Shown one piece after another: positions 2,518 through 58,122 of a stretch of DNA of 64,000 nucleotides. The number at the start of each line of letters is the position of its first letter. Positions within the stretch are counted from its first letter, which is position 1. The DNA comes from a virus. Location of the stretch: the IMG/VR virus record IMGVR_UViG_3300009183_006007, positions 1 through 64,000 of that record; one strand, 5' to 3'. The position numbers and the translations under genes are program-made. The notes beneath the pieces are model-generated. The model searched no databases and was not told the origin of the DNA. It was given only the letters and a program-made list of their open reading frames with translations.

Positions 2518-2841
2518 ATGAGAGATCGTGCCTGGAGAAGATATGTCGAAGAACGTGTAGTTATTAGAAGACTACATTGGTATAGTAGTAGTGTCACTTG
2601 GAGTTGGAGAGGATTTGAAGATGTTAATAAAATATGTCATCAACATCCAAAATTTAATAGTAGTATCGGAACACAGATAAACTTTAGATTCAAGACACAC
2701 ACAACAACAAAATATGATAGTAGGTATAAAACAAAATACTCACCAAATAGAGGACCAAGATATTGGCGTGATGGTTTTAAAACTAGAGAAAACGACAAAA
2801 AAATATTCTTAAAAATATTAAAAGAAAATGGACTTAAATAG
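2518..2841 (+). CDS. Small, very basic hypothetical protein
   Basis: 107 residues, rich in Arg, Lys, Trp and Tyr, with no family I recognise. It has its own host-type promoter, which suggests early expression directly by the host RNA polymerase and possibly a nucleic-acid-binding or host-takeover role (inference only). Its 3' end overlaps the next gene by 14 bp. Confidence 0.6.
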   Translation: MRDRAWRRYVEERVVIRRLHWYSSSVTWSWRGFEDVNKICHQHPKFNSSIGTQINFRFKTHTTTKYDSRYKTKYSPNRGPRYWRDGFKTRENDKKIFLKILKENGLK

Positions 2842-3373
2842 TTTAATACCTGATAAATTCAGACCTTTAGTTAATCCGAACTGGGTTATTAAAGGTAAAT
2901 TTCTTATGTTTAAGAAGTATGAAAATATACCTATTTGTTTTATCGAAGATGATATTGTTTATATTTTCTTAGACGCTAAGATTTCAAAACAGGTAATATT
3001 ATTAACTAAACATATTGTTGATCAAAATATTGAATTTTACTTTACTAGTCCGACTTTATCAAATCCAAAGGGTGTAGATGAAGATGATTATAAAGATTTA
3101 ATAATCAGACATTATTTATTATCATTTGTAAATAAGTTATTTTATAACGGATTCAAAAATATCGATTTTGACTTAATTAGAAATATGGTTTTGTGGTGTG
3201 AGAAAGAAGATTGTTATGAATTAATTAAAGATAATTATGATGATATACTAAAAGATGTTTCACGTAAACACTATGATTACTATGCTAATAAGGAATTTTA
3301 TGATTATGAAATTGATATCAGAGAGGAATTTCAAACTTTATATCGAGAAATACAGATAAATAAAATTCTTTAA
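2828..3373 (+). CDS. Hypothetical protein, 181 aa
   Basis: Unrecognised protein with mixed acidic and aromatic composition and no signal peptide or membrane segment. Its start overlaps the end of the preceding gene, indicating translational coupling. Followed by a 172 bp non-coding gap. Confidence 0.65.
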   Translation: MDLNSLIPDKFRPLVNPNWVIKGKFLMFKKYENIPICFIEDDIVYIFLDAKISKQVILLTKHIVDQNIEFYFTSPTLSNPKGVDEDDYKDLIIRHYLLSFVNKLFYNGFKNIDFDLIRNMVLWCEKEDCYELIKDNYDDILKDVSRKHYDYYANKEFYDYEIDIREEFQTLYREIQINKIL

Positions 3374-3512
3374 TCCATTCAGAACAAAAATACACACTTT
3401 CAGAACATTTTTATAAATAAAAAAATTGATATTAACATTAGTGTTTGCAATGCTAATTGGTTAACTACATATGCTCATTTGTGTGAATTTTTCAAAACTT
3501 AGTATATTTTTC

Positions 3513-3523
3513 TAAATATATAC
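3513..3523 (+). promoter_or_regulatory. Candidate phage promoter element (TAAATATATAC variant)
   Basis: A variant of the TTAATATATA element seen ahead of several plus-strand genes. It lies 22 bp before the ATG at 3546, in the 172 bp gap at 3374-3545, which otherwise shows only AT-rich sequence. Confidence 0.35.
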
Positions 3524-3545
3524 AGCAAATTAAAAATGTATATTT

Positions 3546-5000
3546 ATGAAAACAATCTTATCTTTATTTTTCGTTATTTTATCATTTGGTCTTTTAGCAC
3601 AAGGTGTTGCTATTAATACTGATGGTAGTAACCCGGACGCATCCGCTATTCTGGATGTCAAATCAAATTCTAAAGGTGTTTTAATACCTAGAATGACACT
3701 TTCCGAAAGATCATCAATCTCAACACCAGCAAGTGGTTTACTTGTATATCAAACTAATGGAACAAGTGGTTTTTACTTCTATGATGGAAGTGGATGGGTT
3801 AGATTAGCAACCGGTTCAGAAGTAGACCAAACCGTTTCTTTAACAGGAGGTACAGGTATTTCAGTTTCTGGAACTTACCCTAACTTTACTATTGTTAACT
3901 CAAGTCCATCAAGTGGTGGTACTTTAACAAGTGTAACCGCTGGTACTGGATTGTCAGGAGGAACTATAACTTCAACTGGGACTATTTCAATGCCTTCAGT
4001 TGGAACAGCTGGAACATATGGTTCAGCTACTCAAGTTCCTGTCCTAACTACAGATGCGCAAGGTAGAGTAACCGGTGTTACAAACACAACAATTTCTGGT
4101 GTTGTTCCTTCTGCTGGTAGTGGTGACTATATTCAAAATGGAACTTCTCAACAAACAACCGCAAATTATAATATAGATGGAAACGGAACATTAGGTGGTG
4201 ATATCAATGTTAATGGTTCCGATATTAATGGACCAGGTATAAGTGGTGGAACAAGTGGTATCTTAAGAATCAATTCAAACACAGATGTTAGAGTTGCCTT
4301 AGATAAAGACGCTAATGGTTCTCAAAGTTTTGATATTGCTCCTAATGGTGGGTCAACTGCAGTCTTTTCAGTAACTGAGGCGGGAAATGTCTCTACAGAT
4401 GGTTATGTGAGAATGAAAGAATCAGGAACAACTCCAACATTTTATACGGCTTTACAAAGTGGTGACTTAACAGGAAATTTAACACTAACTTTACCAATAA
4501 CTGCAGGTGCTTCAGGTCAATATTTAAAAACCGATGGAACTGGAGTAACTTCTTGGAGTACTTTAACTCAAAGTTCTTCAACTACTTATCAAACTGCCGC
4601 TCTTGTACCAACAACCACAACATCATCGGTTATTACAGGTTTGACAACAACTTTTACAGCTGACGCTAATCACCTTTATTATATATCAACAACAGGATGT
4701 GTTGTTGACGCTTCTGCCACAACAAATAGAAATGTCAACTCACAAGTTGGTATTTTTGTCGATGGTGTTGTATTAGCCGCGGGAACTCAAGTGGCTTGTG
4801 CTCAAAATTTAGGAACAATATCTTTATGGACTTATGGTAATTGGTCAATAAATCAGGTTATATCACTTACTGCGGGGTCACATACAATAGATGTTAGAGC
4901 AAACAGAAGGACTGATTCTAATATTGATAATCCTACAGTTGGTGGGGCATCAGGAACTGTTTGTCAAGGACAATTAACTGTTATGGTTATTTCTAAATAA
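3546..5000 (+). CDS. Secreted fibre-like protein with Bacteroidetes-type N-terminal module
   Basis: 484 residues. It starts with a clear signal peptide (Lys, about 15 hydrophobic residues, then L-A-Q-G), followed by the module common in Bacteroidetes surface and phage fibre proteins: [18 protein letters not shown], then K-G-V-L-I-P-R-M-T and G-L-L-V-Y-Q-T-N-G. The middle is Gly/Ser/Thr-rich with fibre-like G-T-G-L-S-G-G-T repeats; the C-terminal 130 residues look like a compact beta domain. Could be a tail fibre or a secreted surface protein. The signal peptide is odd for a virion part and favours secretion. The next gene is also secreted. Confidence 0.7.
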
Positions 5001-5014
5001 AATAATAAGAAAAT

Positions 5015-6397
5015 ATGAAAAAAATTTTAACAATATTATTCACATTTTTAACATTCACTCAATTACTATCACAAAATAGTTTTATAGTGAATGGTGGTTT
5101 AGATGTTGTAGCAACTGGTTCTGTTGAAATAGTTTTAAGTGATTATAACTATACTAATCAAACTGGTTCGTTATTAAATATTGGTAGTTACTTAAATTTC
5201 ACAGGAAGTACAAACCAAACAATAACTGGAACTACTCAATTTGAAAATATAAAAGTAAATAAATCAAGTGGTGAGTTACTATTAGTTGATGATATTTCAG
5301 TTTCAGGTGACGTTACTATGACAAATGGTAGTATAAATTTAAATGGTAAAATATTAGATTTAGGAACAACCGGCTCGCTTGTAAATGAAACAAATATTAA
5401 AAAAGTTTACTCAACATCATCAACATCCTATGTTAGAGTTATAAGAACAATTGGTAGTGGTGTTACAATAAACCCAGGTAATATTGGTTTATCATTAGTA
5501 ACAACAAATGCACTTGGTAGTACCGAAGTTAGAAGAAGAAATGAAATTGTTGATGTCGGATCATCAAATATGAGTATCGATAGAGTTTATTCAGTTTTCC
5601 CATCTACAAATAATGGAAGTCTTAATGCGACACTAGACGTTAACTATTTTAATTCAGAATTAAATGGATTAGATGAAAGTTCTTTAGCAACTTTCAGAAG
5701 ACCATCTATAAGTTCAGCTTGGGTAAATAAAGGTGGGACAAATATACAAACTTCAACTGGAAGTGGAACAGGTATAGTTCAAAATTTGAATTGGATGGAA
5801 TTTTCAGAAGTTACACTGGCTTTAAATGCAACTCCATTACCGATAGAACTATTAAGCTTCTCGGCTGATTGTTTCGATGGTGGTGTTAAATTAACTTGGG
5901 TAACAGCATCTGAGTTAAACTCTGACCATTTTGAAATAGAAAGATCTAGAGATGGTTTCAATTGGGATTTAGTTTTAAATAAACCTGCTGCTGGAAATAG
6001 TAATCAAGTTCTTACATATGAAGTAGATGATAAAGGAAGTAAATTGTTTGATGATATCTTATATTATAGACTTAAACAATTTGACTTTGATGGTTATTAT
6101 AAAATCTATGATGCAATTTCAATAAATTGTTTGAAAGATGTCAATAATTACATAAAAATATATCCTAACCCTAGTGATAACTTATTTAATATTATATTAA
6201 ATAATGATTTACTAATTGGAAATTCTGTAATAAAAATAACAGATGCATTGGGTAGAACAATTTATAACAATAATGTTAATGTAACTCCTGGTGTGAATTT
6301 ATTTGTTTTAGATTTAGATATTAAACCTGGTATTTATTACATATCAATTGATAATAATGGACACTCATCTGGTGTAGTTACACAAATAATAAAGTAA
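5015..6397 (+). CDS. Secreted protein with type IX secretion C-terminal sorting domain
   Basis: 460 residues with an N-terminal signal peptide (about 19 residues, ending L-L-S-Q). The N-terminal half resembles beta-helix surface proteins. Around residues 275-365 there is the Bacteroidetes module P-L-P-I-E-L-L-S-F-S-A ... L-T-W-V-T-A-S-E-L-N ... F-E-I-E-R-S-R-D-G. The last 75-80 residues form a typical T9SS type A sorting domain, starting Y-P-N-P-S-D-N and ending in a short beta strand and Lys. Such proteins cross the inner membrane by Sec and are exported or anchored at the cell surface by T9SS, which occurs only in Bacteroidetes. Forms a pair with the gene 15 bp upstream and is followed by a terminator. 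Confidence 0.85.
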   Translation: MKKILTILFTFLTFTQLLSQNSFIVNGGLDVVATGSVEIVLSDYNYTNQTGSLLNIGSYLNFTGSTNQTITGTTQFENIKVNKSSGELLLVDDISVSGDVTMTNGSINLNGKILDLGTTGSLVNETNIKKVYSTSSTSYVRVIRTIGSGVTINPGNIGLSLVTTNALGSTEVRRRNEIVDVGSSNMSIDRVYSVFPSTNNGSLNATLDVNYFNSELNGLDESSLATFRRPSISSAWVNKGGTNIQTSTGSGTGIVQNLNWMEFSEVTLALNATPLPIELLSFSADCFDGGVKLTWVTASELNSDHFEIERSRDGFNWDLVLNKPAAGNSNQVLTYEVDDKGSKLFDDILYYRLKQFDFDGYYKIYDAISINCLKDVNNYIKIYPNPSDNLFNIILNNDLLIGNSVIKITDALGRTIYNNNVNVTPGVNLFVLDLDIKPGIYYISIDNNGHSSGVVTQIIK

Positions 6398-6410
6398 TAA
6401 AAAATACTTA

Positions 6411-6440
6411 AAACCCACTCAAAACTGAGTGGGTTTTTTT
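6411..6440 (+). terminator. Rho-independent terminator
   Basis: Perfect 10 bp stem AAACCCACTC / GAGTGGGTTT with a 6 nt loop and a following T run, just after the T9SS-substrate gene. Confidence 0.85.
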
Positions 6441-6468
6441 ATTCAAATTAAATTGTGAAAAATGAATA

Positions 6469-6484: not shown

Positions 6485-8011
6485 ATGAACTATATTCAAA
6501 AATATAATGAGTGGGAGAATATTTCAGAAGCTACTTTAGATGATACTAAAGAGTTAGTTGATTATGATATATCAAGAAAGGGTAGAGTTAAAATTAACTT
6601 ACTTGGTATTAGTGAGAATATAAAGTTAACTACATGTAGTTCAGTTCCCGCTGACAATGAGTTTGTAATTCAAATTAGACCTAGTTCTTTTAGATTAATT
6701 GAATTCTCAAAATTTATTGAGTTGTATAAAATAGAAGACATGAATAATATATTTGTTTATGAAACAACTTCTACTAAATATCCATATGCTGTTGTTTTAA
6801 AAGGAACAAAAACAACTATGGTTAGACAATCTAATAGGGTTGGTGGTTCTGCCAGAGGTAACTATTTTAGAGAAACCGCTTTTATAATAACACTTGCTAT
6901 TAGACTTTGGGAAAATAAAGGAGTTAAAATTGATATTTATTCCAATAGAGGAAAAATCGAAATGAATTTTGCTAAAGGAGTTGCAACTATGTCTAAGAAG
7001 GAAAGAGCTGAATTTAGAAATCAATATGATGAGTTTGTTCATGATAAGAAAATATATGATGCTATGGTTACTCAAATAGATTCTTTGATTCAATATCTTG
7101 GTGTTTCGATTTTTAATATTAAATCGGTGGTTAAGAACTCAGTAGATTTACTTATTAATAGAATAGCTAATGATTTATTAGATGATGAAGAAGACTTACA
7201 TAGTGATATTGTTAAAAGTCAACCTCAAAATATAGCTGATTTTAATACCTTTGAAATTCCTAAAGGTGTAACCTTATCAAAATGGAATCCAAGTGATATC
7301 TGGATTTTATATAAAGACGCCGATTGGACTTTAATCGAACCAAAAGGATATGATGATAATGAAATAGAGAGTCTTGAAGAATTAAATGTTTACTTACATA
7401 ATTGTATTGTAAATAAAGAAGGTATAGTTGGTGTTTCACTTAAACAACAAATAACTAATGCTGGTGGTTTATATGAAATAAATTTAGATGAGAATAGAAA
7501 GTTCTCACACGATTATAAAGGATATTATGTTAAAAACACTATAAAGTCTTCTAAGATTAAATTCTCATATGAGAAACTTGGTGGTGTAATCGGTGGTGGT
7601 GAAATAGATGTTAGAACATTTGACACTGATACTAAATCTCCAATATCTGCTGAGGTTAAAGGTTCTACAGCTTCTCAACATATGAGTGGTAAAGCCGGTT
7701 CTTATATAAAGTTTGTTATGCCTGTTGATAAATATAAAGTATTAGAATTTATCAGAAAGAATAATGTGGATGATATTAAGGAATTTGTAGAAAATAACTA
7801 TACATTCACTAAATCAGATTTGAAAGTTATTTTTGAAAAAGACTTAGAAAGTCCAAAAAATGGTCAAAGTAACTCTAGAATGCAAGCTATTATATTTACT
7901 GATTGGTTAGAAAGTTTATCTAAAAAAACTAGAAATGAAGTAGTTTCTGGTATAATTAGATATGCAAAGTCAGAATCTAATTGGTCAGCTCCTCACTTAT
8001 TGTTAAAATAA
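6485..8011 (+). CDS. Capsid-targeting-tagged hypothetical protein, 508 aa
   Basis: The N-terminus M-N-Y-I-Q-K-Y-N-E-W-E-N-I-S-E fits a T4-like capsid-targeting sequence, with I-S-E as a possible gp21-type cleavage site after residue 15. The rest is an unrecognised, soluble protein with no membrane segment. It has its own promoter-like element and terminator-bounded unit. If the tag works as in T4, it would be packaged in the head and injected. Function unknown. Confidence 0.7.
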   Translation: MNYIQKYNEWENISEATLDDTKELVDYDISRKGRVKINLLGISENIKLTTCSSVPADNEFVIQIRPSSFRLIEFSKFIELYKIEDMNNIFVYETTSTKYPYAVVLKGTKTTMVRQSNRVGGSARGNYFRETAFIITLAIRLWENKGVKIDIYSNRGKIEMNFAKGVATMSKKERAEFRNQYDEFVHDKKIYDAMVTQIDSLIQYLGVSIFNIKSVVKNSVDLLINRIANDLLDDEEDLHSDIVKSQPQNIADFNTFEIPKGVTLSKWNPSDIWILYKDADWTLIEPKGYDDNEIESLEELNVYLHNCIVNKEGIVGVSLKQQITNAGGLYEINLDENRKFSHDYKGYYVKNTIKSSKIKFSYEKLGGVIGGGEIDVRTFDTDTKSPISAEVKGSTASQHMSGKAGSYIKFVMPVDKYKVLEFIRKNNVDDIKEFVENNYTFTKSDLKVIFEKDLESPKNGQSNSRMQAIIFTDWLESLSKKTRNEVVSGIIRYAKSESNWSAPHLLLK

Positions 8012-18754: not shown

Positions 18755-20647
18755 TTACTTAACTTCTTCATAAGATGTATCTTCAACGTCTCCACCGCCA
18801 TTACCATTGTCAGTGCTTTCGTTAGAACTTTGTGGTTCTTCTTGAGATTGTTGATATAATCTTGTACTAATTGTTTGCCAAGTTTCATTTAACTTATTAG
18901 ATGTTTCATCAATTGATGTTACATCTTTTTCTGAGTGAGCCTTTTTCAAAGCATCTAAGTCAGTATTAAGTAAAGACTTATCTTCATCAGTCAACTTATC
19001 AGAAAATTCTTTGATTTGTTTTTCTGTTTGGAAGATAAGATTATCAGCCATGTTTACTTTGTCAACCAATTCTCTTTCGAGACGATCAGACTCAGCATTT
19101 AACTCAGCCTCAGCTTTCATTTTTTCAATTTCCTCTTTAGATAGTTGAGAACCACCTTCAATTCGGATTTTGTTTTCTTTACCACTAGCTTTATCTTTAG
19201 CAGATACAGATAGAATACCATTAGCATCAATATCTAATGTTACTTCTACTTGAGGAATACCTCTCGGAGCTGGCATGATACCATCAAGATGGAATCTACC
19301 TAACGAACGGTTATCCTTAGCCATTGGTCTTTCACCTTGTAGAACGTGAATTTCTACAGATGGTTGATTGTCAGAAGCTGTTGAGAACGTTTCAGACTTA
19401 CGGGTCGGAATTGTTGTATTAGCTTCAATCAACTTAGTCATCACACTACCCATAGTCTCAATACCTAAAGATAGAGGTGTTACATCAAGAAGAAGAACAT
19501 CAGTAATACCACCACTCAAAACAGCTCCTTGAATAGCCGCTCCTAAAGCAACAACTTCATCAGGGTTAACAGATTTGTTTGGTTTCTTACCTAAGTACTT
19601 CTCAATTGCTTCTTGAATAGAAGGTATTCTTGTAGAACCACCAACAAGAATTACTTCATCAATGTCAGATGGTTTAAGTCCTGCATTCTTCAAAGCACTT
19701 TTAGCACAAGCGATAGCTCTATCAACAAGACTTGAGGTCATTTGATCAAACTTAGCTTTAGTTAATTGTTTAACGAAGTGTAAAGGAATACCATCTTTAG
19801 CAGTGATGTATGGAAGATTGATTTCTGATTGAGAAGTTGAAGATAATTCAATTTTCGCTTTCTCAGCAGCTTCTTTCAAACGTTGAAGACCCATAGCATC
19901 TTTTGAAAGATCCATTCCGTGTTCAGATTTGAATTCATCAACCATCCAAGTAATGATTGCGTTATCAAAGTCGTCACCACCTAAGTGAGTATCACCATCA
20001 GTAGATTTAACTTCAAATACACCATCACCAATTTCTAGAACTGATACATCATGAGTACCACCACCACAATCGAATACTAAGATTTTAGAATCTGTATTCT
20101 TTTTATCTAACCCGTAAGCTAGAGCTGCCGCAGTTGGCTCATTAATGATACGCTCAACTTTCAAACCAGCGATTTCACCAGCTTCAATAGTTGCAGTTCT
20201 TTCAGCGTCCCCGAAGTAAGCAGGAACCGTAATAACAGCTCTTTTTACTTCATATCCTAAATAGTCTTCAGCAGTTTTCTTCATTTTCTGAAGAATCATT
20301 GCTGAGATTTCTTGTGGAGTGAAAGTTCTATCATCGATTTTAACACCTGGTACATTTTTACCAGCTTTAACAACTTCATAAGGAACTCTCGTTACCTCAT
20401 CAGTGCAAGCTGAAAAATCTTTACCAATGAACCTCTTAATAGAGTAAACAGTATTTTTTGGATTGGTAACTGCTTGTCTTTTAGCGGGGTCTCCAATTTT
20501 TCTATCTTTGTCGGTAAATCCGACAACTGAAGGAGTTGTTCTTTTCCCTTCAGAGTTGGTGATTACGATTGGTTCACCACCTTCAACTACAGCTACACAT
20601 GAGTTTGTAGTTCCTAAGTCAATTCCAATAATTACGTCTTTTGCCAT
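18755..20647 (-). CDS. dnaK: Chaperone DnaK (Hsp70)
   Basis: Full-length 630-residue Hsp70. ATPase motifs: G-I-D-L-G-T-T-N-S near residue 8, [11 protein letters not shown] near 168, F-D-C-G-G-G-T near 192, V-G-G-S-T-R-I-P near 330; substrate domain [10 protein letters not shown] near 386; charged, Ser/Asn/Gly-rich tail. GrpE (25132) and DnaJ (26481) are also in the window, so the phage has the complete system. Likely roles: folding of virion proteins and replication complex remodelling. A 21 bp imperfect palindrome lies upstream. Confidence 0.97.
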
Positions 20648-25131: not shown

Positions 25132-25596
25132 ATGGAGGAAAACACAAACCCTGAAGAAACTATTGAAAACACAATAGATCCTATTGAGGATCTAAAGTTG
25201 AAATTATCAGAATCTGAAGATAAGTATGTTAGACTTTTCGCAGAGTTTGATAATTATAAAAAGAGAGTTCAAAAAGAAAAAGAAGATATCAAAAACAATA
25301 CAAAGGTATCTATGATAACATCTATTCTTGATATGGATAATGATATTGCTATTGCTATCAAAAATATCAAAGATGAAGTAACCAGAGAAGGTGTTGAACT
25401 GATTGCTCAAAAGTTAGAAAGATTCTTAAAGAGTCAAGGTATCGAAAGTATTCAAACTGAAACTTATGATGATGAGTTACACGAAGTTATCAGTGTAGTA
25501 CCTACTGGCAAGACTGAGGTTATTGATGTCGTTAGTAAAGGTTATATGTTAAATGGTAAACCTTTCAGACACCCAAAAATTGTTATTGGTAAATAA
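25132..25596 (+). CDS. grpE: GrpE nucleotide exchange factor
   Basis: 154 residues. An acidic start and long coiled coil (L-K-L-K-L-S-E-S-E-D-K-Y-V-R-L-F-A-E-F-D near residue 22, then N-Y-K-K-R-V), then a beta C-terminal domain with H-E-V-I-S-V-V-P-T-G and a final H-P-K-I-V-I-G-K typical of GrpE. It releases ADP from DnaK. Overlaps the next gene by one base. With dnaK and dnaJ it completes a phage-coded Hsp70 cycle. Confidence 0.9.
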   Translation: MEENTNPEETIENTIDPIEDLKLKLSESEDKYVRLFAEFDNYKKRVQKEKEDIKNNTKVSMITSILDMDNDIAIAIKNIKDEVTREGVELIAQKLERFLKSQGIESIQTETYDDELHEVISVVPTGKTEVIDVVSKGYMLNGKPFRHPKIVIGK

Positions 25597-26480: not shown

Positions 26481-27548
26481 ATGAGTAAAGATTATTACAA
26501 AGTACTAGGCGTAGATAAAAACGCTTCAGATGATGAAATAAAAAAAGCATATAGAAAAAAAGCTATGGAATTTCATCCAGACAAAAATCCGGATAATCCA
26601 GAAGCAGAGTCTAAATTTAAAGAAGCTGCTGAAGCATATGATACATTATCATCACCGGATAAAAAAGCTAGTTATGATAGATACGGAACAACTGGTAACC
26701 CATTTGGTGGAGGTGGAAATCCATTTGGTGGAGGTGGATTTAATATGGAAGATATTTTTTCACAATTTGGTGATGTATTTGGAAATTCATTTAATCAAAG
26801 ATATGGTGGTGGACAAAGACCACAAAGTAAAGGATCTAATCTAAGAATAAAAGTTAGTTTAACTATTGATGAGATTCTAAAAGGAGCAGTTAAGAAATTA
26901 AAATATAAGAGACAAGATAAATGTAATTCTTGTAATGGTGTAGGTGGAACTGATCCAAGAACTTGTATTCCTTGTAATGGTTCTGGTCAAAGAACAATTG
27001 TTCAAAACACACCATTCGGTCAAATCAGACAAGTCGCTACTTGTCCAGATTGTTCTGGTAGTGGTAAAGTTGTTGCTGTGAAATGTAACTCTTGTAGAGG
27101 TGAAGGAGTAAGTATTAAAGAACAAGTAGTTGATGTTGAAATCCCCAAAGGAGTTTCTAATGGAATGCAATTAACAATGCAGGGATTTGGTAACTTTATT
27201 AAAAATGGATCGGCTGGTGACTTACAAATTATAATAGAAGAAATAATTGACCACTCTTTTAGAAGAGAAAATAATAATATAGTTGTGGAAAAAACTATAT
27301 CTGTTATAGATGCTATTATTGGATCAAATATTAAAGTCTCAACACCACATGGTGAGATACCAATTGCTATTGAGCCAGGAACAGAACACGGAAAGGTTTA
27401 TAGAGTATCAGGTAAAGGAATTCCAGATATTAATTATGGACTTGGTGATCTTTATGTTAAAATCAGTATTAAAATTCCAAAGAAAATTGAGTTGGATGAA
27501 AAATACACTCTTGAGAAATTAAAATCTTCGAAAAACTTTTCAGTATAA
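26481..27548 (+). CDS. dnaJ: Chaperone DnaJ (Hsp40)
   Basis: 355 residues. J domain 1-70 with H-P-D at 32-34; Gly/Phe-rich linker with N-P-F-G-G-G-G repeats about 75-112; zinc-finger region with four C-x-x-C-x-G-x-G-type repeats (C-N-S-C-N-G, C-I-P-C-N-G, C-P-D-C-S-G, C-N-S-C-R-G) about residues 151-217; C-terminal substrate-binding domains. A type I DnaJ that delivers clients to DnaK. Slightly shorter than E. coli DnaJ (376). Ends just before a strong terminator. Confidence 0.96.
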
Positions 27549-33207: not shown

Positions 33208-33924
33208 ATGAAACATTTAAAAACTTATAATCAAATGAATGAGGAAATATCCTTTAAAGGATTAGCCCCAATTTTAACATCTTTAATTATGACACTAAGT
33301 TCTTCAGATGTTGCTGCATTTGGTGGTGCATTTGGTGGACATGGTGGATTTGGTGGACATGGATTTGGTAATCCATATGCTAATAGAGGAGGTGGACAAA
33401 TTGGCAACGGAGAAGGAAACGGACAAATTGGTATCGGACAAATTAGTGATCCCGGATACAAAAGACAGGCATCTAGTATAATTCAATCTCAATCAAGAAA
33501 TATAATTAATGATTTGGAAAAGATGAAATCAGTAACTGATGATCCTCAATTACTATCCTTAATTAGCTCAATTAGTGAGTTATCAAATTGGCAATATTCT
33601 GAGGGTGTTGAACCGATTAATTTGGTTCTTGGTAAGTTGAGAGGTTATATTAAATCACATGATGTAAATGATGATGTAATAAATAGCACTTTAGATCATT
33701 TATCAAAGGGTGATATTGATAATATTAAATCTGACTATAACAGATTGTTGACAGAATATGATGATATTATCGGACATGGTACTGGTAATGCTAGATCTGG
33801 AAATGTTAGTGGATTTGTTACTGCTATAGATGTTTTAAATATTATTTTATGCTTGTTATTATCAGTTTTAGTATTAGTTGTGGGTAAAGGATTCTGGGAT
33901 TTATGGAGAACTAAATCCTATTAA
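33208..33924 (+). CDS. Tagged glycine-rich membrane protein, 238 aa
   Basis: Starts M-K-H-L-K-T-Y-N-Q-M-N-E-E (tag-like). A hydrophobic stretch around residues 20-35, then a Gly/His/Phe-rich segment (G-G-H-G-G-F-G-G-H-G) and Gly/Gln/Asn repeats at about 37-85, then a helical middle and a strong C-terminal membrane segment (about 208-230) ending W-R-T-K-S-Y. An injected membrane protein is one possible reading. First gene of the tagged array. Confidence 0.65.
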   Translation: MKHLKTYNQMNEEISFKGLAPILTSLIMTLSSSDVAAFGGAFGGHGGFGGHGFGNPYANRGGGQIGNGEGNGQIGIGQISDPGYKRQASSIIQSQSRNIINDLEKMKSVTDDPQLLSLISSISELSNWQYSEGVEPINLVLGKLRGYIKSHDVNDDVINSTLDHLSKGDIDNIKSDYNRLLTEYDDIIGHGTGNARSGNVSGFVTAIDVLNIILCLLLSVLVLVVGKGFWDLWRTKSY

Positions 33925-33937
33925 AAAATAAATAATT

Positions 33938-34546
33938 ATGAAATACTTAAAAAGATTTAACGAAAGTAATAGTACACCATTTAGAAGTAAACTTCTTTAT
34001 AAAGATTCTAATATTGGTAAATATGAACTATATGTTGATGGTTCTACTGGATGGGGAATAATATTCCCTAATGGTTATATGGAAATTGAAGAGGGTCCAC
34101 ACGAGTCTGTTGGTTTTATGAATGGTGAAATAAATGGAGTTAGTATAGGAGCAAGAGGAAATGATGTACCTAGAATACCTGGAAAATATTGGGAAGGTAA
34201 TATGTCAAGTGATGAATTGTCAAGATTTTTTGATAGGGTTATTAGCAAATACAATAATATCACTGAATCATCTGATGATTATAAAGATTTAAGTATGTAT
34301 AATCCATACTATAGTGATAAAGATGAAAGTGATAAAGATAATCTATTGAAATGGTATATGAAAGGATTTAATGATGAGTTAAGAGGAACAACCACAATTG
34401 AATCAGACAATAAAATAGATATGGTTGCTTATAACTTAGGAGCACAACACGCCATAATTGGTGATGATGTTTCTAGTATTGATAATCTATCTGATGAAGA
34501 AATAATATCTATGATTGAAGATATTTATAATAAAAATCAAAAATAA
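33938..34546 (+). CDS. Capsid-targeting-tagged hypothetical protein, 202 aa
   Basis: Starts M-K-Y-L-K-R-F-N-E-S-N. The first half is a beta-rich domain (Y-E-L-Y-V-D-G-S-T-G-W-G-I-I-F), the second an acidic helical one. No family recognised. Second gene of the tagged array. Confidence 0.7.
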   Translation: MKYLKRFNESNSTPFRSKLLYKDSNIGKYELYVDGSTGWGIIFPNGYMEIEEGPHESVGFMNGEINGVSIGARGNDVPRIPGKYWEGNMSSDELSRFFDRVISKYNNITESSDDYKDLSMYNPYYSDKDESDKDNLLKWYMKGFNDELRGTTTIESDNKIDMVAYNLGAQHAIIGDDVSSIDNLSDEEIISMIEDIYNKNQK

Positions 34547-34549
34547 GAT

Positions 34550-34840
34550 ATGAAATATTTAAAAACATTTGAATCATATGATAATGATATCGCTACTCAG
34601 ATAGCTGAAGACCTTTTACCAAAACTTCAAAAGCTTAGACAAGAGAAAGGTAAGTTTACCGTAGGCATGTTTGATAACTATATGGAAGAAAGAGGTGGTA
34701 ATATGAAACTAACTGATGAAATTATGAGTATACTTGTAAGTATGGGATTTGATTTTGATCCATATGATGATGAAGATGATAATGAATATGGTGATGATGA
34801 TTTAGATGATCATCCACTTTTTTCATATAATAAGAATTAA
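34550..34840 (+). CDS. Capsid-targeting-tagged acidic protein, 96 aa
   Basis: Starts M-K-Y-L-K-T-F-E-S-Y-D. Helical core (Q-I-A-E-D-L-L-P-K-L-Q-K-L-R-Q-E-K) then an acidic end rich in Asp. Ends at a strong palindromic terminator. Confidence 0.65.
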   Translation: MKYLKTFESYDNDIATQIAEDLLPKLQKLRQEKGKFTVGMFDNYMEERGGNMKLTDEIMSILVSMGFDFDPYDDEDDNEYGDDDLDDHPLFSYNKN

Positions 34841-34872
34841 AAAAGAGAGACCAATTGGTCTCTCTTTTTTAT
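34839..34872. terminator. Palindromic bidirectional terminator
   Basis: 14 bp arms (AAAAAAGAGAGACC / GGTCTCTCTTTTTT) around AATT, shared by the plus-strand gene ending at 34840 and the minus-strand mini-gene ending at 34869. Confidence 0.9.
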
Positions 34873-35042
34873 TTTAATACCATATACTTAACACCGTCAA
34901 CAATCTTCACTTTATACTTTCCAGTATCTTCTGATTTGACTTTCTTCTCAGCTCTTTTGGTAGCCTTAGTTCCTTTGGTGCTTTTATCTACTTCACCAAA
35001 TTTATTCTTTAATACCTCTCTCATTGAAAATCTCTCAGTCAT
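34869..35042 (-). CDS. Small basic protein, 57 aa
   Basis: ATG at 35042; M-T-E-R-F-S-M-R-E-V-L start, Lys-rich middle. It sits on the opposite strand inside the tagged array with its own host-type promoter, like the 59-aa gene at 27584. Probably an early gene; function unknown. Confidence 0.6.
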   Translation of the reverse strand: MTERFSMREVLKNKFGEVDKSTKGTKATKRAEKKVKSEDTGKYKVKIVDGVKYMVLK

Positions 35043-35066
35043 ATTTTTTAGTTTTTGTTTGTCTTA

Positions 35067-35095
35067 CAAATATAAGGAATCTTTTTGAATAACAA
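35067..35095 (-). promoter_or_regulatory. Host-type promoter for the 57-aa gene
   Basis: On the minus strand: TTG (35093-35095), 18 bp, TATATTTG (35067-35074), followed by TAAGACAAA as in the 27804 promoter. Confidence 0.6.
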
Positions 35096-35097
35096 TA

Positions 35098-35108
35098 TTA
35101 AATATATA
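35098..35108 (+). promoter_or_regulatory. Candidate phage promoter element (TTAAATATATA variant)
   Basis: Variant with one extra A, 4 bp before the ATG at 35113, again back to back with a host-type promoter. Confidence 0.4.
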
Positions 35109-35112
35109 CAAT

Positions 35113-35553
35113 ATGAAATATCTTAAAGGATTTAACGAATCAATGGAAGAACAAATCTATAAACAAGTTCTTGATTCTATAAAAGATTGTTTTCAAGAGT
35201 TTGAGGATAATGGTTGGTATTGGATAGCGGATTCTTATTCAGGTACTTATCCAGGTATATCTATTTGGCAAAATCCAAACTTTAATTGTAGAATGATGAA
35301 TAAAGAAGAATCTGATCCAAGAAACTGGACTCTAAATAAAAATCCTTACGAAAAAAACATTGATATTACTGGTGAAATTAAATCAGATGGTTCTATTAAT
35401 TGGGAAATGAATGAAGACGAAACAGATAGTGAAGATGGTAAAGATTTTTTAGTTGCTGTAAAAAGATTACATGATGAAACTGGACTTGATTTCAATTTCT
35501 CATATAATAATAGAGGTGGTGAAAGAAGAATAATAATACAAGGTAGAATATGA
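35113..35553 (+). CDS. Capsid-targeting-tagged hypothetical protein, 146 aa
   Basis: Starts M-K-Y-L-K-G-F-N-E-S-M-E-E. The body has a W-Y-W-I-A-D-S-Y-S-G-T-Y-P-G-I-S-I-W segment and an alternating-strand C-terminal half. Not recognised. ATGA overlap with the next gene. Confidence 0.7.
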   Translation: MKYLKGFNESMEEQIYKQVLDSIKDCFQEFEDNGWYWIADSYSGTYPGISIWQNPNFNCRMMNKEESDPRNWTLNKNPYEKNIDITGEIKSDGSINWEMNEDETDSEDGKDFLVAVKRLHDETGLDFNFSYNNRGGERRIIIQGRI

Positions 35554-35948
35554 AAAGACTAAGAAAATTTAATGAGAGTGTATCTCAAATAGATTATGAT
35601 TATGTATATAGTTGTTTTGCTGAACTTATAGATGATAATAAAGCTGAGATAGAATTGATGCAAGGTGAATATGTTAAAGTACCATACATAACTATTAGAT
35701 TAAAAACTATTCCTAAAATAGATCCTAGAACTACTAGTCAAGCAAAACCTATTGAAAATAAAAAGTCCTCTATCTATAATTATATTACAGGACATAATAG
35801 TAATAATGAGTTATTACAAGAATTAGAAGTTAGTATAAATAGATTATCGGAAGAATATCCTGATTATAAATTACAATTTAATGATTGGGGTACTTCCATA
35901 TTTATGGAAATATTTAAAAATACAGAAGAAGAAAAATATCCATTTTAA
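35550..35948 (+). CDS. Capsid-targeting-tagged hypothetical protein, 132 aa
   Basis: Starts M-K-R-L-R-K-F-N-E-S-V-S-Q. Unrecognised mixed alpha/beta protein. Overlaps genes on both sides. Confidence 0.7.
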   Translation: MKRLRKFNESVSQIDYDYVYSCFAELIDDNKAEIELMQGEYVKVPYITIRLKTIPKIDPRTTSQAKPIENKKSSIYNYITGHNSNNELLQELEVSINRLSEEYPDYKLQFNDWGTSIFMEIFKNTEEEKYPF

Positions 35949-36487
35949 TGAAAATAAAGAATTATATACAATTTATAAAAGAATCATCTGGATATCAATA
36001 CGGATGTGTAATGGTTGAAGTACCAGTAAGTAATTGGAATGAGATAACTAGTTATATCGATCCAGAAGATGTTTATACAGGAGGTGATGATACTCACGGA
36101 ATTCAAGAAAATCCACATGTTACTATATTATATGGTTTACATAAAGAAGTAACATCAGAGATGGTTAAATCAGTATTTGAAGGGTTTACAAAAGACATTA
36201 ATATAGAAGTTAATGGTATTGACATCTTTGAAAATAAAGACTATGATGTTGTCAAGTTTAATGTTAATCCTGATGGTGCTCTTCAAGAACTACATGATAA
36301 ACTTTCTGAGTTTCCTAATTCAAATGATTTTCCGGATTACAAACCACATATAACAATTTCGTATGTTAAAAGTGGAACAGGTAAAAAATATGTTAAACCA
36401 GATTATAAATATGAAGTTAAGAATGTTGATAAGATAACTTATTCAATGGTTGATGGTAATAAAATAAAATTCAAATATACTAAATAA
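35948..36487 (+). CDS. 2H phosphoesterase with capsid-targeting tag
   Basis: 179 residues. Two H-x-T motifs, P-H-V-T-I (H57, T59) and P-H-I-T-I (H134, T136), about 77 residues apart, define the 2H phosphoesterase fold, which acts on 2'-5' or cyclic phosphodiesters. Relatives include 2'-5' RNA ligases and the phage anti-CBASS enzyme Acb1. The N-terminus M-K-I-K-N-Y-I-Q-F-I-K-E-S is a tag with a possible cut after I-K-E. If packaged, it would act at once after injection. Substrate not determinable from sequence. Confidence 0.8.
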   Translation: MKIKNYIQFIKESSGYQYGCVMVEVPVSNWNEITSYIDPEDVYTGGDDTHGIQENPHVTILYGLHKEVTSEMVKSVFEGFTKDINIEVNGIDIFENKDYDVVKFNVNPDGALQELHDKLSEFPNSNDFPDYKPHITISYVKSGTGKKYVKPDYKYEVKNVDKITYSMVDGNKIKFKYTK

Positions 36488-37743
36488 TGAAACATCTAAC
36501 TCCATATAAAATATTTGAATCGATGTTTAAGTTAGACACTATAGCTAATCAGTTTATTACTGATATGTCTAAAGTTTATAATCTTAGATTTGGAGAATCA
36601 TTTGATAAAAATAAAGCCAATTGTGCTTGGTTTACTGGTGAGTTTTACAAATGGGCAAAATCAAAAGATTTGAATGTTAAAGTAGTTTACTTTGATTCTA
36701 ATATTGAAGCTCATATTGCTCCTATGATAGATGATAAAGTTATAGATTTTGCTATTAAACAATTTACTAAAAATCCTAATGATAATTATTTAATACTTAT
36801 ACCAGAAGACTATAAGAAATATGGATATGATAAGTTTGAAATATATGATGAGATGCCTAAATTAGAAACTATTTTTTCGGCTGATAAAATTCAAGAATCT
36901 AATCAAATGTATTATAGTATCTATGATTGGTTTGAAGATCTAAAAAGATATCAATGGTCAAAAAATCAAAAGTCAATGGTAAATGAATCATCACTAAATA
37001 AATGGTGTGATTATTTTGTTGGTGATGGTTATTGGGGAAAGATTAAAGATTTAGTTGATAAAATATTTATTTCTTTATCTAAAGTTGATACTGAGTATAT
37101 AAATGACAGAATGTATGATGTTTATGATGAGATACCTTCTGGTAAAGAAAAATGGACAATGTGTTGTGTTGCTTATGGTGGTTATGAAAATCATGATAAA
37201 CCAAATAAAGTAAAATACAATGGTGCGATTTATATTAAAAATCCTAAAGACGGTGATAAATTAGATATAATCATACACATTCTAAAAGAAATAGTTAGTC
37301 CAACATTAACAATTGGTTACCCTTCTTATGTAATAAGACAAAGTGATGAACAATTTTATGTTACTGATAAGAAATGGCAATGTAAAAACTTTAACATCGA
37401 TGACTATGGTATACAAGATGGATTTGAATATAAAACAGATGATAGAAGAGGTAAAGGTAATGTATATTCATCCGATATTAAAAATAAAAAAGATTATTCT
37501 ATTGATAAGATATTAGATATGTATAAACCTTGTATCGCTATTAACATAGGAGGATATCAAGATGCACACTCAACTGGTAAAATGAATATGAGAAAATTAG
37601 AGTCCGATATAGATGAAGTTTTACCTTCTATTTTACCAACCTTAGATTATGAAGAAGTTATATTTGATTCTTCAAGAGGTGATAGAAGATTTGATGATGA
37701 TATAGATATTTATGAATACACAATTAAAATATTACTAAAATGA
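36487..37743 (+). CDS. Tagged protein with possible cysteine-peptidase/transglutaminase-like N-terminal domain
   Basis: 418 residues. Tag M-K-H-L-T-P-Y-K-I-F-E-S. Then N-C-A-W-F near residue 41, A-H-I-A-P-M-I-D near 72 and D-F-A near 81 give a Cys, His, Asp order like papain or transglutaminase-type enzymes; this is suggestive only. The C-terminal 260 residues form a separate unrecognised domain with W-C-D-Y-F-V-G-D-G-Y-W near 172. Fits a packaged protein that could act on a host target. Confidence 0.6.
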   Translation: MKHLTPYKIFESMFKLDTIANQFITDMSKVYNLRFGESFDKNKANCAWFTGEFYKWAKSKDLNVKVVYFDSNIEAHIAPMIDDKVIDFAIKQFTKNPNDNYLILIPEDYKKYGYDKFEIYDEMPKLETIFSADKIQESNQMYYSIYDWFEDLKRYQWSKNQKSMVNESSLNKWCDYFVGDGYWGKIKDLVDKIFISLSKVDTEYINDRMYDVYDEIPSGKEKWTMCCVAYGGYENHDKPNKVKYNGAIYIKNPKDGDKLDIIIHILKEIVSPTLTIGYPSYVIRQSDEQFYVTDKKWQCKNFNIDDYGIQDGFEYKTDDRRGKGNVYSSDIKNKKDYSIDKILDMYKPCIAINIGGYQDAHSTGKMNMRKLESDIDEVLPSILPTLDYEEVIFDSSRGDRRFDDDIDIYEYTIKILLK

Positions 37744-38237
37744 AAATAAAAACATTCGAATCTTTTAATGATGAGTTCTCAGGTGAATGGGATGGACCGA
37801 GATGGCAACAACATTTTAAAAGGTTGAAAGAAGATCCTGATTATAAGATTAGATGGATAGAACACCGAGATTCACAAGTTAAGGAATATTGGATGAGTCT
37901 TAAACCATTTGAAAAGGAATCTGATGTGCCTGATTTACCAAATCCATTAAACGACTTTTATAAACAAAGAATTATAGAACTAGGTGGTATTCCTAAATCC
38001 GAGTTAGAAGATGGTCAATGGTATTATGGTAACTTTAGAAATTCAGACTTAGGTAAGTGGGATTCTGAGAAACAAGAATTTGGACATTGGAGATATAAAT
38101 TTGGACACAGATGGGACACTTGTAATCATTTCGAAGATGATAATAGATATGCACTTTTTGTTCCATTAAGAAAAGCTAACAATGAAGAGTTAGAATCAAT
38201 TAAAAAAATAGAAAATGAAGCATCTAAAAACATATAA
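37740..38237 (+). CDS. Capsid-targeting-tagged hypothetical protein, 165 aa
   Basis: Starts M-K-I-K-T-F-E-S-F-N-D-E-F. Rich in Trp and charged residues (H-W-R-Y-K-F-G-H-R-W-D-T). No family recognised. Its last 23 bp encode the tag of the next gene in another frame. Confidence 0.65.
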   Translation: MKIKTFESFNDEFSGEWDGPRWQQHFKRLKEDPDYKIRWIEHRDSQVKEYWMSLKPFEKESDVPDLPNPLNDFYKQRIIELGGIPKSELEDGQWYYGNFRNSDLGKWDSEKQEFGHWRYKFGHRWDTCNHFEDDNRYALFVPLRKANNEELESIKKIENEASKNI

Positions 38238-38484
38238 AATATTTGAGTGGGTTGAAGTTAGTAATAAACTTGAGAAGAAATTTGAATTTAAGGATTTCTT
38301 ACAAGCTCTTAAATTCATAAATGAACTTTCTAAAATTTGTGAAGAGCAAAATCATCACCCCGAAATAAATTGGATTTATAATAAAGTGAAACTTACTTTA
38401 TCTACACACGATGCTGGTGATATTGTTACAAAAAAAGATTTAAAATTATCAAAGTCAATTGATGAAATACTTAAAAACATATAA
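38215..38484 (+). CDS. phhB: Pterin-4a-carbinolamine dehydratase with capsid-targeting tag
   Basis: 89 residues. The family signature is clear: F-K-D-F near residue 25, then E-E-Q-N-H-H-P-E (H47, H48), W-I-Y-N-K-V near 53 and T-H-D-A-G (H65), followed by a final helix. The enzyme dehydrates 4a-hydroxytetrahydropterin and can act as a dimerization cofactor. The tag M-K-H-L-K-T-Y-K-I-F-E replaces the usual N-terminal helix start up to the conserved Trp12. The gene overlaps both neighbours by 23 bp. Confidence 0.85.
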   Translation: MKHLKTYKIFEWVEVSNKLEKKFEFKDFLQALKFINELSKICEEQNHHPEINWIYNKVKLTLSTHDAGDIVTKKDLKLSKSIDEILKNI

Positions 38485-39172
38485 ACTATTCGAATCAGTT
38501 ATTACTGAATTTGAATTTCCTACAGAATTGGATATTCAAGAACTATTCTATGATCTAACAGATGAAGATACAAACTCTAAATGTAAATTATATTCATCAG
38601 GTTATCAGTTTTTTACAACAGATAATATAACAAGATCTATTAGAAGTCAATTATTCTCCGATATGAGTTTTGAAGAAAACTGGATAAATAAAGAATGTGA
38701 AGATACTCAAGATACTTGGAAAAATATGTTTATTGATTTATCTAAACCTGTATCAAATGATATGATTAAATTGGCTGTTAGAAATTATAATGATGTTTAT
38801 TTTTTAGAGGTTGAAGAATCAAAAAATAGTGCTGGTAAAAGTTATCTTGAAAGATTACAAGAAAATATATTAAATGATATTATTCCGGCTTATCCAATTA
38901 TTTATTTAAATCTAGGTCTTTTTCATCCAGATAAATTACCAGTAGTTGTAGAGTGTTTACAAAGATTATATGAAGTAACTGGGTTTAGACCAACTTCATC
39001 AGTTTGGGCTGAAGATTATGTAGATGAGGAAACAGGAGATCTTGTTACTTTTTATGGAGCTGACTTACAACTTTATAAAGTAAATGATATAGAATATCAG
39101 AATCTATGTAAGATTGTTGGAAGAATAAATCCAAATAATAAAACACAAGAAGTAACTAAACATTTTTTATGA
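38462..39172 (+). CDS. Capsid-targeting-tagged hypothetical protein, 236 aa
   Basis: ATG at 38462 preferred over a TTG 3 bp upstream. Starts M-K-Y-L-K-T-Y-K-L-F-E-S-V-I-T-E, with I-T-E as a possible cut after residue 15. Its tag is read in a different frame over the end of the dehydratase gene. Body unrecognised, acidic. Last tagged gene of the array. Confidence 0.7.
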   Translation: MKYLKTYKLFESVITEFEFPTELDIQELFYDLTDEDTNSKCKLYSSGYQFFTTDNITRSIRSQLFSDMSFEENWINKECEDTQDTWKNMFIDLSKPVSNDMIKLAVRNYNDVYFLEVEESKNSAGKSYLERLQENILNDIIPAYPIIYLNLGLFHPDKLPVVVECLQRLYEVTGFRPTSSVWAEDYVDEETGDLVTFYGADLQLYKVNDIEYQNLCKIVGRINPNNKTQEVTKHFL

Positions 39173-45074: not shown

Positions 45075-45282
45075 ATATTTTATTAATAGAGTTCTTTCTT
45101 CTTTTATTTCTTGATTCTAATCCTAAGCTTTTTAGAATTTCCATGTCAATAGATTTTGATAATTCATCTGATAACATTTTACTCAGTTCATCAACAACAT
45201 CAAGTCCATAATGTTCACTTAATTTATCTGCTTCCGAATTTGAGTAGATTTCACCACCGGATCCTGTTTTAATTTGATTCAT
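45058..45282 (-). CDS. Mini-protein resembling another segment of the major capsid protein
   Basis: 74 residues, starting inside the end of the mutase gene. Residues 18-50 (A-D-K-L-S-E-H-Y-G-L-D-V-V-D-E-L then S-K-M-L ... I-D-M-E-I-L) resemble T4 gp23 A-Q-D-L-R-A-V-H-G-M-D-A-D-A-E-L ... I-N-R-E-V as I recall it, with about 10 identities in 33 positions. It ends with a basic tail K-R-R-K-N-S-I-N-K-I-F-R-A-S-E, like the mini-proteins at 10418 and 10599. Confidence 0.5.
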   Translation of the reverse strand: MNQIKTGSGGEIYSNSEADKLSEHYGLDVVDELSKMLSDELSKSIDMEILKSLGLESRNKRRKNSINKIFRASE

Positions 45283-46375
45283 TTGATAGTTCTTTTTTTA
45301 CTCTACTTAGAGATGATCCAATTATCTGATGCATGTCATAATATTTATACTCAGATAATCTACCTCCAAATATTATATTTGGATACTGTTCACTTAATTT
45401 TTTATATTGGTTATAAATTTTATTATTTTTATCATCATTTATTGGATAAAATGGAACACAACTTCTATTATAATCTAAAGGATATTCTTTTGTTATCCAA
45501 GTAACATTTGATTTTGAATTTTCAAAATGTTTATGTTCTGTAATTCTTGTATATGGTACTTCCTCTGATGTATAATTTACAATTGAACATCCTTGAAAAT
45601 CTTCTTTATCTAATTTCTCATTAATAAATCTAAGAGATCTATATTCCAATTCACCAAATTGATAGTCAAAAAACTCATCAATCTTACCAGTGAATACTAT
45701 TTTTTTAGCCATAGAATTAAAATATTCTTTATTAGAGAAATAATTATTACTTAATCTAACTTCAATCCCTTCAAGTAGTTTTTCAAATATTTTTGTATAT
45801 CCACCAATCGGTATACCCTGATATTTATCAAAGAAGTAATTATCATCAAAGTTAGTTCTGATAGGTAGTCTTTTAATAATTGAAGATGGTAAATTCTTAG
45901 GATGTTTACCCCATTGTTTTTTAGTATATCCTTTTATAAATATTTCATAAATATCTCTACCAACTTGTGATAATATCCAATCTTCAAGATTATAAGGACT
46001 TTCACAAGGAATTGAAACTTCTTTAAGTTTTTCTTTTGCTTCTTCAGGTGTATTAACACCCCATATCTGATTTAGAGTTAAAAGATTAATAGGAAATGAA
46101 TATACTTTATCTTCAAATTTAACCTTTGGGTTGTGTTTATAAGGATGGAATTCACAAAATTGATTTATCCAATTCCATATTACTTTATCATTTGTATGAA
46201 AAATATGAGGACCATAAGTATGTATGTTTATATTATCCTTTTCTTCTGTATAGCAGTTACCAGCAATATGGTCTCTACCTTCAATAACTAAACATTTTTT
46301 ACCTAACTTATTCATCTCATAAGCAAATGTTGATCCAAATAATCCAGATCCAACTATTAAATAATCATACATCAT
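45269..46375 (-). CDS. glf: UDP-galactopyranose mutase
   Basis: 368 residues, FAD enzyme converting UDP-galactopyranose to UDP-galactofuranose. FAD-binding G-S-G-L-F-G-S near residue 8, E-G-R-D-H-I-A-G-N-C-Y near 32, the Glf signature Y-G-P-H-I-F-H-T-N near 54, and K-G-Y-T-K-K-Q-W near 148. Near the 3' end of the minus-strand glycan operon, so Galf is probably part of the glycan made. Confidence 0.92.
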   Translation of the reverse strand: MMYDYLIVGSGLFGSTFAYEMNKLGKKCLVIEGRDHIAGNCYTEEKDNINIHTYGPHIFHTNDKVIWNWINQFCEFHPYKHNPKVKFEDKVYSFPINLLTLNQIWGVNTPEEAKEKLKEVSIPCESPYNLEDWILSQVGRDIYEIFIKGYTKKQWGKHPKNLPSSIIKRLPIRTNFDDNYFFDKYQGIPIGGYTKIFEKLLEGIEVRLSNNYFSNKEYFNSMAKKIVFTGKIDEFFDYQFGELEYRSLRFINEKLDKEDFQGCSIVNYTSEEVPYTRITEHKHFENSKSNVTWITKEYPLDYNRSCVPFYPINDDKNNKIYNQYKKLSEQYPNIIFGGRLSEYKYYDMHQIIGSSLSRVKKELSNESN

Positions 46376-46982: not shown

Positions 46983-46993
46983 TTTTCCACAAA

Positions 46994-49231: not shown

Positions 49232-49236
49232 TTTAA

Positions 49237-51360: not shown

Positions 51361-51363
51361 AAT

Positions 51364-53900: not shown

Positions 53901-53902
53901 TT

Positions 53903-54532: not shown

Positions 54533-54535
54533 ATA

Positions 54536-55776: not shown

Positions 55777-55777
55777 A

Positions 55778-58115: not shown

Positions 58116-58122
58116 TGGTTTT

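Follow-up and report, generated by a model that had tools for sequence, protein, structure and literature searches.

A predicted type IX secretion cargo in a two-gene insertion of a Bacteroidota phage

Why would a phage carry a gene whose product bears the export signals of a bacterial secretion system? We asked this of ORF2, a gene near one end of the window, by which we mean the whole stretch of 64,000 nucleotides analyzed here (positions 1 to 64,000 of IMG/VR record IMGVR_UViG_3300009183_006007). A preliminary description had called ORF2 a phage gene for a type IX secretion system (T9SS) substrate. Its neighbors are indeed phage genes: the window encodes a topoisomerase II large subunit, a gp32-like SSB, a head-tail adaptor, an endolysin-like amidase, NrdB and a NusG-like protein, among others. 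Five relatives of the topoisomerase sit on 281–508 kb contigs and the head-tail adaptor is 45% identical to that of a 636-kb phage, hence we took the window to belong to a jumbo-phage lineage.

We noted several other features of the window. Genes resembling DnaK, GrpE, DnaJ and Clp chaperones were seen by eye at 18755–20647, 25132–25596, 26481–27548 and 60155–62284, as was a long reverse-strand block (45269–60105) of glycosyltransferase-, FkbM-type and nucleotide-sugar-like genes, where 58123–60105 appears to be a fusion of two sugar-nucleotide enzymes. Sixteen of 87 greedily chosen genes (for example 6485, 14751, 28679 and 33208–39172) share a leader of the MKxLKxFNES or MKxxRYTEFIKE type, a loose pattern that may include a few false members such as 32668; we take these leaders to be reminiscent of T4 capsid-targeting sequences.

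Export signals of ORF2 and its partner ORF1

The features of ORF2 are as follows.

5015..6397, forward strand: ORF2, 460 aa, T9SS type A cargo-like, ATG start
5015..5071, forward strand: predicted signal peptide, residues 1–19, cut before Gln20 (from the sequence and an all-Gln alignment column)
5072..5836, forward strand: N-terminal region, residues 20–274, beta-rich, poorly modeled except at about 60–120
5837..6136, forward strand: LPIELLSF... Ig/FN3-like domain, residues 275–374, pLDDT mostly 89–94, FN3-type structural matches
6158..6370, forward strand: T9SS type A sorting domain (CTD), residues 382–452, matched by TIGR04183 and PF18962, modeled fold like that of the PorU CTD

The preliminary description had read a C-terminal sorting domain with the motif Y-P-N-P, and this was borne out. 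The motif is present in the translation, and profile searches scored above both curated cut-offs: TIGR04183 matched residues 382–451 (E = 3.1e-8, 33.5 bits, cut-off 23) and PF18962 matched residues 382–452 (E = 5.4e-7, 30.2 bits, cut-off 27). A search of the complete 75,196-bp virus record returned a single TIGR04183 match, at 38.6 bits. In the AlphaFold model, confidence was confined to the C-terminal domains, residues 275–374 being FN3/Ig-like; an LPxEL Ig/FN3-like module ahead of a CTD is common in Bacteroidota proteins. Residues 377–460 of this predicted model superimposed on the Ig-like beta-sandwich CTD of Porphyromonas gingivalis PorU (6za2) over 82 residues (2.2 Å, Z = 9.6, 18% identity). 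Since FN3 and Ig structures scored Z values like that of PorU, the match backs the fold but is not diagnostic on its own. A sequence search of the PDB with the CTD gave weak matches (best E = 0.11).

Leaders were scored by a simple rule, used in place of a dedicated predictor, that asks for K or R in the n-region and an uncharged hydrophobic 11-mer. This rule picked two of the 87 window genes, ORF2 and the gene in front of it, ORF1; a stricter rule, which also screened the residues that come next, picked ORF1 and missed ORF2. In an alignment of 27 phage cargo proteins, 25 of which pass the simple rule at the start used, Gln20 of ORF2 occupies the sole column that is Gln throughout (27/27). One leader listing had cut ORF2 at an earlier Gln; the alignment puts the site at Gln20. 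This column agrees with the published Q-rule of Bacteroidetes, by which Gln is expected after cleavage, and which, averaged over Bacteroidetes species, holds for 71% of the predicted substrates (as given in passages of PMC5837995 and PMC10653852). The leader rule and the Gln20 column thus uphold the signal peptide that had been proposed. Collectively, it is well supported, and in our judgment highly probable, that ORF2 would leave its host by T9SS-type export signals.

Cellular relatives of the C-terminal module point to the host phylum. Among the best 80 of 140 confirmed cellular loci with this module, 79 were titled Bacteroidota and one Ignavibacterium, which together with the Q-rule site argues for a Bacteroidota host, as previously proposed. 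The related claim of strict confinement to Bacteroidetes did not hold for the CTD profile, as Deinobacterium chartae and Bacteroides ihuae were both matched in the control set, one of them over the cut-off. Cellular cargo of Flavobacteriales (in a Crocinitomicaceae-titled genome and its family) likewise carries an LPxEL Ig/FN3-like module followed by a full or short tail; unlike such cargo, ORF2 is phage-borne, paired with ORF1 and flanked by phage-like signals. No close cellular relatives of ORF2 were found in genome contigs searched with an alignment of the window protein and its counterpart in viral contig L002. The notion of a phage-specific N-terminus was dropped because 9 of 40 host-family genomes gave matches to the N-terminal region of ORF2. 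Pfam and NCBIfam recognized no enzyme domain in ORF1 or ORF2, and PADLOC returned no match at E ≤ 0.1 for these two and two neighbors; we therefore rejected the candidates that the pair are enzymes or a known anti-phage defense system.

The partner gene ends fourteen bases upstream of ORF2.

3546..5000, forward strand: ORF1, 484 aa, signal peptide (...LLA|Q), fiber-like shaft, exchangeable C-terminal tip

Gln stands at the leader site in all seven ORF1 proteins listed and is invariant in eight aligned. ORF1 matched no Pfam or NCBIfam family, no CTD was found in it, and a PHROG search gave two matches, both of unknown function. A match of the tail-fiber type was obtained with the ORF1 relative in L007, not with ORF1 of the window. 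Its structure model (pLDDT 40) was uninformative and was not used. The GVAINTD...LDVKS motif of ORF1 is also present in host genomes, and parts of the protein were matched in 17 of 40 host-family genomes.

The insertion and its flanking signals

We gathered 46 viral loci that carry the topoisomerase gene found at the left end of the window. In 28 of these, some of them near-duplicates, gene D and the exonuclease gene were each matched, in the same order as in the window, and none of the 28 had an ORF1 or ORF2 match between the two (tblastn, E ≤ 1e-6). Within this comparison, gene E was matched by L223 and L264 only; there D and E lie 30 bp apart, an empty site, hence the ORF1-ORF2 pair is an insertion. 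Similarity to L223 on the right side starts at about 6469.

3374..6468, forward strand: insertion, approximate extent, between gene D (2828–3373) and gene E (6485–8011)
3374..3545, forward strand: region ahead of the cassette, with a promoter-like motif, AATATATA, at 3515–3522, 31 bp before the ORF1 start
6410..6437, forward strand: hairpin resembling a terminator, behind ORF2, with a stem of 12 bp and a T-rich tail

Judged by this gene order, ORF2 is the second gene of a two-gene insertion, probably an accessory cassette (moron). The preliminary description had mentioned neither ORF1 as a partner, nor the hairpin, nor the insertion. The gene behind D matched E weakly in L244 (9e-5), L247 (1e-4) and L238 (0.03). 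Two of the 28, L229 and L247, have ORF2-like matches elsewhere, upstream of the topoisomerase gene. We rejected the D-exonuclease interval of relatives as a cargo slot, the 20 of 28 intervals examined giving no C-module match; one leader-like ORF (L232, 164 aa) was seen in them. Between the topoisomerase gene and gene C of the window lies an FkbM-methyltransferase-like gene (1785–2498, below the Pfam cut-off) that had no match in the 46 topoisomerase loci and is perhaps a second insertion.

The motif AATATATA was the top-scoring 8-mer upstream of window genes (13 of 79) and also stands ahead of several genes besides ORF1. It was counted in 13 of 78 in the forward orientation versus 4 of 78 as the reverse complement, and 500 first-order resamples gave a mean of 3.4 and a maximum of 10. 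The hairpin search returned two sites, which are both strands of one hairpin, with 1.2 expected. A hairpin and T tract like those of ORF2 also occur just upstream of window gene 32668. GC3 was 0.151 for ORF1 and 0.128 for ORF2, versus a mean of 0.171 (sd 0.034, 73 genes); the overall GC of ORF1 was the highest among the 73.

Related pairs, tails and cargo genes in other contigs

The pair was found in the same order, and whole, in L002, L007, L019 and L154, and with an ORF2 truncated where the contig stops in L008 and L009. ORF1 also occurs about 4 kb behind the capsid gene in L010 and at the contig end in L012. The L002 pair is 66% (ORF1) and, over the whole protein, 61% (ORF2) identical to that of the window; a capsid gene was not seen in L002. 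At L002:9242–11869 we noted by eye an RNA-ligase-like gene that an intein and an endonuclease-like gene appear to split. A T4-type major capsid gene stands directly upstream of the pair in L007, L008, L009, L019 and L154, and L019 has a homing endonuclease-like gene (by eye) between the two.

When the capsid protein of these carriers was compared with 19 large records, four capsid-set records matched at 77–81%, and the 15 others gave four short weak matches and eleven blanks. It was unmatched in the record of the window, in a search run without a positive control. A capsid-slot context for the window was accordingly left unsupported, with no capsid match in its record and short weak ones in its relatives, and its phage presumably has a different capsid protein from the capsid-slot carriers. 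The ORF1 tips of the window and L019 are nevertheless near-identical (138 of 148 residues), and such a tip in phages whose capsid is not recognizably shared suggests transfer of the cassette; it probably moves between phage lineages.

The tails of ORF2 differ as well. The ORF2 proteins of L154 and L019 are orthologs, one with a short tail and the other with a full type A-like tail, and by these comparisons ORF1 tips and ORF2 tails have both been exchanged between phages. Short tails score below TIGR04183, five of the 27 aligned cargo proteins matching at E ≤ 1. We rejected the short tail as a phage-specific feature, since short tails occur in cellular loci too: among the fetched loci of the first 18 host genomes they were seen in L113, L115 and L131, which come from the two genomes reached via loci titled Crocinitomicaceae bacterium. 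The family of one of these two, G003, gave 15 short versus 14 full tails among ORFs that a script could classify, a count biased to short because its loci were the best matches to a short-tail query. In passages of PMC11285876, the targeting signal of HBP35 is placed within the last 22 residues of its CTD. The short tail may be a working T9SS signal.

Substitution ratios were low over most of the pair. For ORF1, pN/pS was 0.27 between the window and L019 (0.13 in the tip) and 0.35 between the window and L002. For ORF2, the window/L002 ratio was 0.20 over residues 120–270, 0.63 over residues 271–460, where the tails differ, and 0.46 overall; that of L154 and L019 was 0.135 over residues 1–295. 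On these ratios, purifying selection acts on most of the cassette.

We also ran a scan with a capsid alignment, which matched at least 579 loci; the best 80 were taken (64 of the 80 distinct at 97%; L215 and L216 share one identical protein, and a profile seed came from the L171 contig). In these 80, the 346 kb downstream of the capsid gene contained 14 C-module matches and the 317 kb upstream none. With at least 2 kb of downstream sequence, 12 of 58 loci had a protein with leader and C-module, a frequency that may be biased upward because the four capsid seeds came from cargo-bearing phages; by the stricter leader rule, 21 of the 58 had any leader-bearing ORF downstream. The occupants of this slot vary. 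In L222, the major capsid gene is immediately followed by a run of five leader-bearing genes (L222:9015–15812); the first encodes a subtilase that combines SprB repeats with a T9SS CTD (43.9 bits, cut-off 27), and the second an SprB-repeat protein that also has a CTD. Downstream of the capsid gene, L153 (L153:7875–10733) and L155 (L155:9097–12023) encode subtilases that have a leader as well as Asp, His and Ser motifs, next to a leader-bearing 191-aa protein that in L155 matches Endonuclease_NS. The C-module profile does not score these two subtilases, whose ends look short-tail-like by eye only. Homing endonuclease-like genes (by eye) also occupy the slot. At L174:12625–15324, 3.7 kb downstream of a phage capsid gene, we noted a gene for a leader-bearing protein with a TonB-dependent receptor plug domain.

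In the capsid lineage, 16 of 19 first cargo genes have TATTTAT in the 60 bp ahead of them, compared with 154 of 302 other genes with a free upstream region (Fisher p = 0.0075, an optimistic value because the motif was chosen by eye from the same sequences). L153 was left out of the 19 because the gene given came second in its pair. Within 100 bp upstream of the 20 cargo genes listed, the T4 late promoter, TATAAATA, was absent.

Across 20 records, 12 of which were known carriers beforehand, TIGR04183 scored over its cut-off in 12 and the module matched in 16, each record having at least one of these. The other eight records, picked as large contigs of 178–508 kb (L224, L258, L238, L266, L254, L244, L199 and L217), were all positive. 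Twenty further records chosen by topoisomerase (30–172 kb) gave TIGR04183 matches in four and module matches in none, the module search lacking a positive control. TIGR04183 found nothing in any of nine reference phages (T4, phiKZ, Bacillus phage G, Atu_ph07, phi14:2, phi38:1, FCL-2, RM378 and crAss001). T9SS-tagged genes thus look frequent in very large contigs, though not universal.

Possible roles at the surface of the infected cell

We favor, with a probability of about 0.6, the reading that ORF2 is the export-tagged half of a two-gene moron in a jumbo phage of Bacteroidota, and that the two proteins are sent out to change the surface of the infected cell. Both would exit the cytoplasm through the host Sec pathway; the host T9SS would then recognize the CTD of ORF2 and carry this protein over the outer membrane, leaving it on or near the cell surface. 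ORF1, fiber-like and with an exchangeable tip, probably acts with ORF2. ORF1 has no CTD that would take it over the outer membrane, which counts against this explanation. Receptor masking would be the foremost effect, preventing adsorption by other phages or by progeny of the same phage, and we offer receptor masking or superinfection exclusion only tentatively as the purpose. The preliminary description had suggested that ORF2 may coat the infected cell, block other phages or change gliding or adhesion; no enzyme domain in the protein favors one of these over the others. Known examples of superinfection exclusion include the lipoproteins T5 Llp and phi80 Cor, each of which blocks one receptor. 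They too are products of small phage accessory genes acting at the host surface, although as lipoproteins they involve no T9SS.

The same observations could be read in other ways. ORF1 and ORF2 might be virion proteins, such as head or tail fibers, whose hydrophobic leader has another role. The exchangeable tips of ORF1, the tail-fiber-type stretches of other phages matched by its L007 relative and the position of the pair beside the major capsid gene in other contigs all fit such a role, and passages of PMC6949934 discuss, with regard to receptor-binding proteins, gut-phage BACON proteins that lie close to tail and head genes and in some cases next to T9SS-tagged proteins. We nevertheless consider it unlikely, as the leaders resemble Sec signal peptides and end at a Q-rule site, and the presumed capsid-targeted proteins of the window start with a different leader. 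CTDs, moreover, are not known to act in virions. Alternatively, export may be real but serve adhesion, aggregation or the handling of polymers or matrix, for progeny spread or nutrient gain, rather than phage exclusion. The subtilases with catalytic motifs, SprB-repeat proteins and nuclease-family protein of the capsid slot are consistent with this, as is the cargo of Cryophage (an endoglucanase, a glycoside hydrolase 39 and a PA14 protein, in passages of PMC7468147). ORF1 and ORF2 have no recognized enzyme domain, and for this pair we regard such a use as possible but rather doubtful.

It is also conceivable, though improbable, that the pair are host genes captured recently and functionless in the phage. 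Host-family homologs of the ORF2 N-terminal region (9/40) and of parts of ORF1 (17/40), together with the GC of ORF1, would suit a recent capture, but pN/pS is well under 1 over most of the cassette, GC3 of both genes lies inside the phage range and several viral contigs carry the cassette. An assembly chimera or host contamination comes to mind because the record is solely metagenomic. We rejected this as scarcely credible, given that the order of D and the exonuclease gene is kept in 28 relatives, two of them with an empty site, and that similar pairs occur in other contigs.

Taking ORF2, as we prefer, for an exported cargo, how does it compare with known cases? T9SS sorting domains have been described in phage proteins before, in passages of two reports (PMC7468147; PMC6949934). 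Those of the first (Nat Commun 2020) propose T9SS hijacking by Cryophage, mention superinfection and call the case unique. Cryophage, with a 76-kb genome and endoglucanase, GH39 and PA14 cargo, likewise encodes T9SS type A sorting-domain proteins, which vary between Cryophage variants (PMC7468147). Unlike in Cryophage, the locus described here has jumbo-phage relatives, a two-gene insertion, a fiber-like partner and short-tail cargo. Passages of the second report (Viruses 2019, PMC6949934) describe gut-phage T9SS sorting-domain proteins that are linked to BACON repeats and encoded upstream of the head section, and mention no pair with a fiber-like protein. As they also place T9SS-tagged genes beside head genes, the novelty of the capsid slot is lessened. 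In the literature searched on phage T9SS cargo, neither the ORF1-ORF2 pair nor tail exchange was described, and no frequency was given for jumbo phages; as far as that literature goes, the two-gene insertion with a fiber-like partner, the tail exchange and the recurrence in very large contigs are new.

The locus may be part of something broader. Large Bacteroidota phages might run an exported-protein program of swappable effectors with host-type T9SS tails, full or short, some with fiber-like partners and, in one lineage, encoded behind the capsid gene. Late in infection, such a program would rebuild the cell exterior through receptor masking, surface proteolysis and nuclease release. We put the chance of this somewhat below even. 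If it is true, phages of an abundant phylum would place their own proteins outside the cell through the secretion machine of the host during infection, which would open a testable route to superinfection exclusion or surface remodeling in Bacteroidota. The combination of a CTD and a Q-rule leader would then provide a sequence handle for finding such genes in metagenomes, and may give a hint of the host family for giant phages that have no host assigned.
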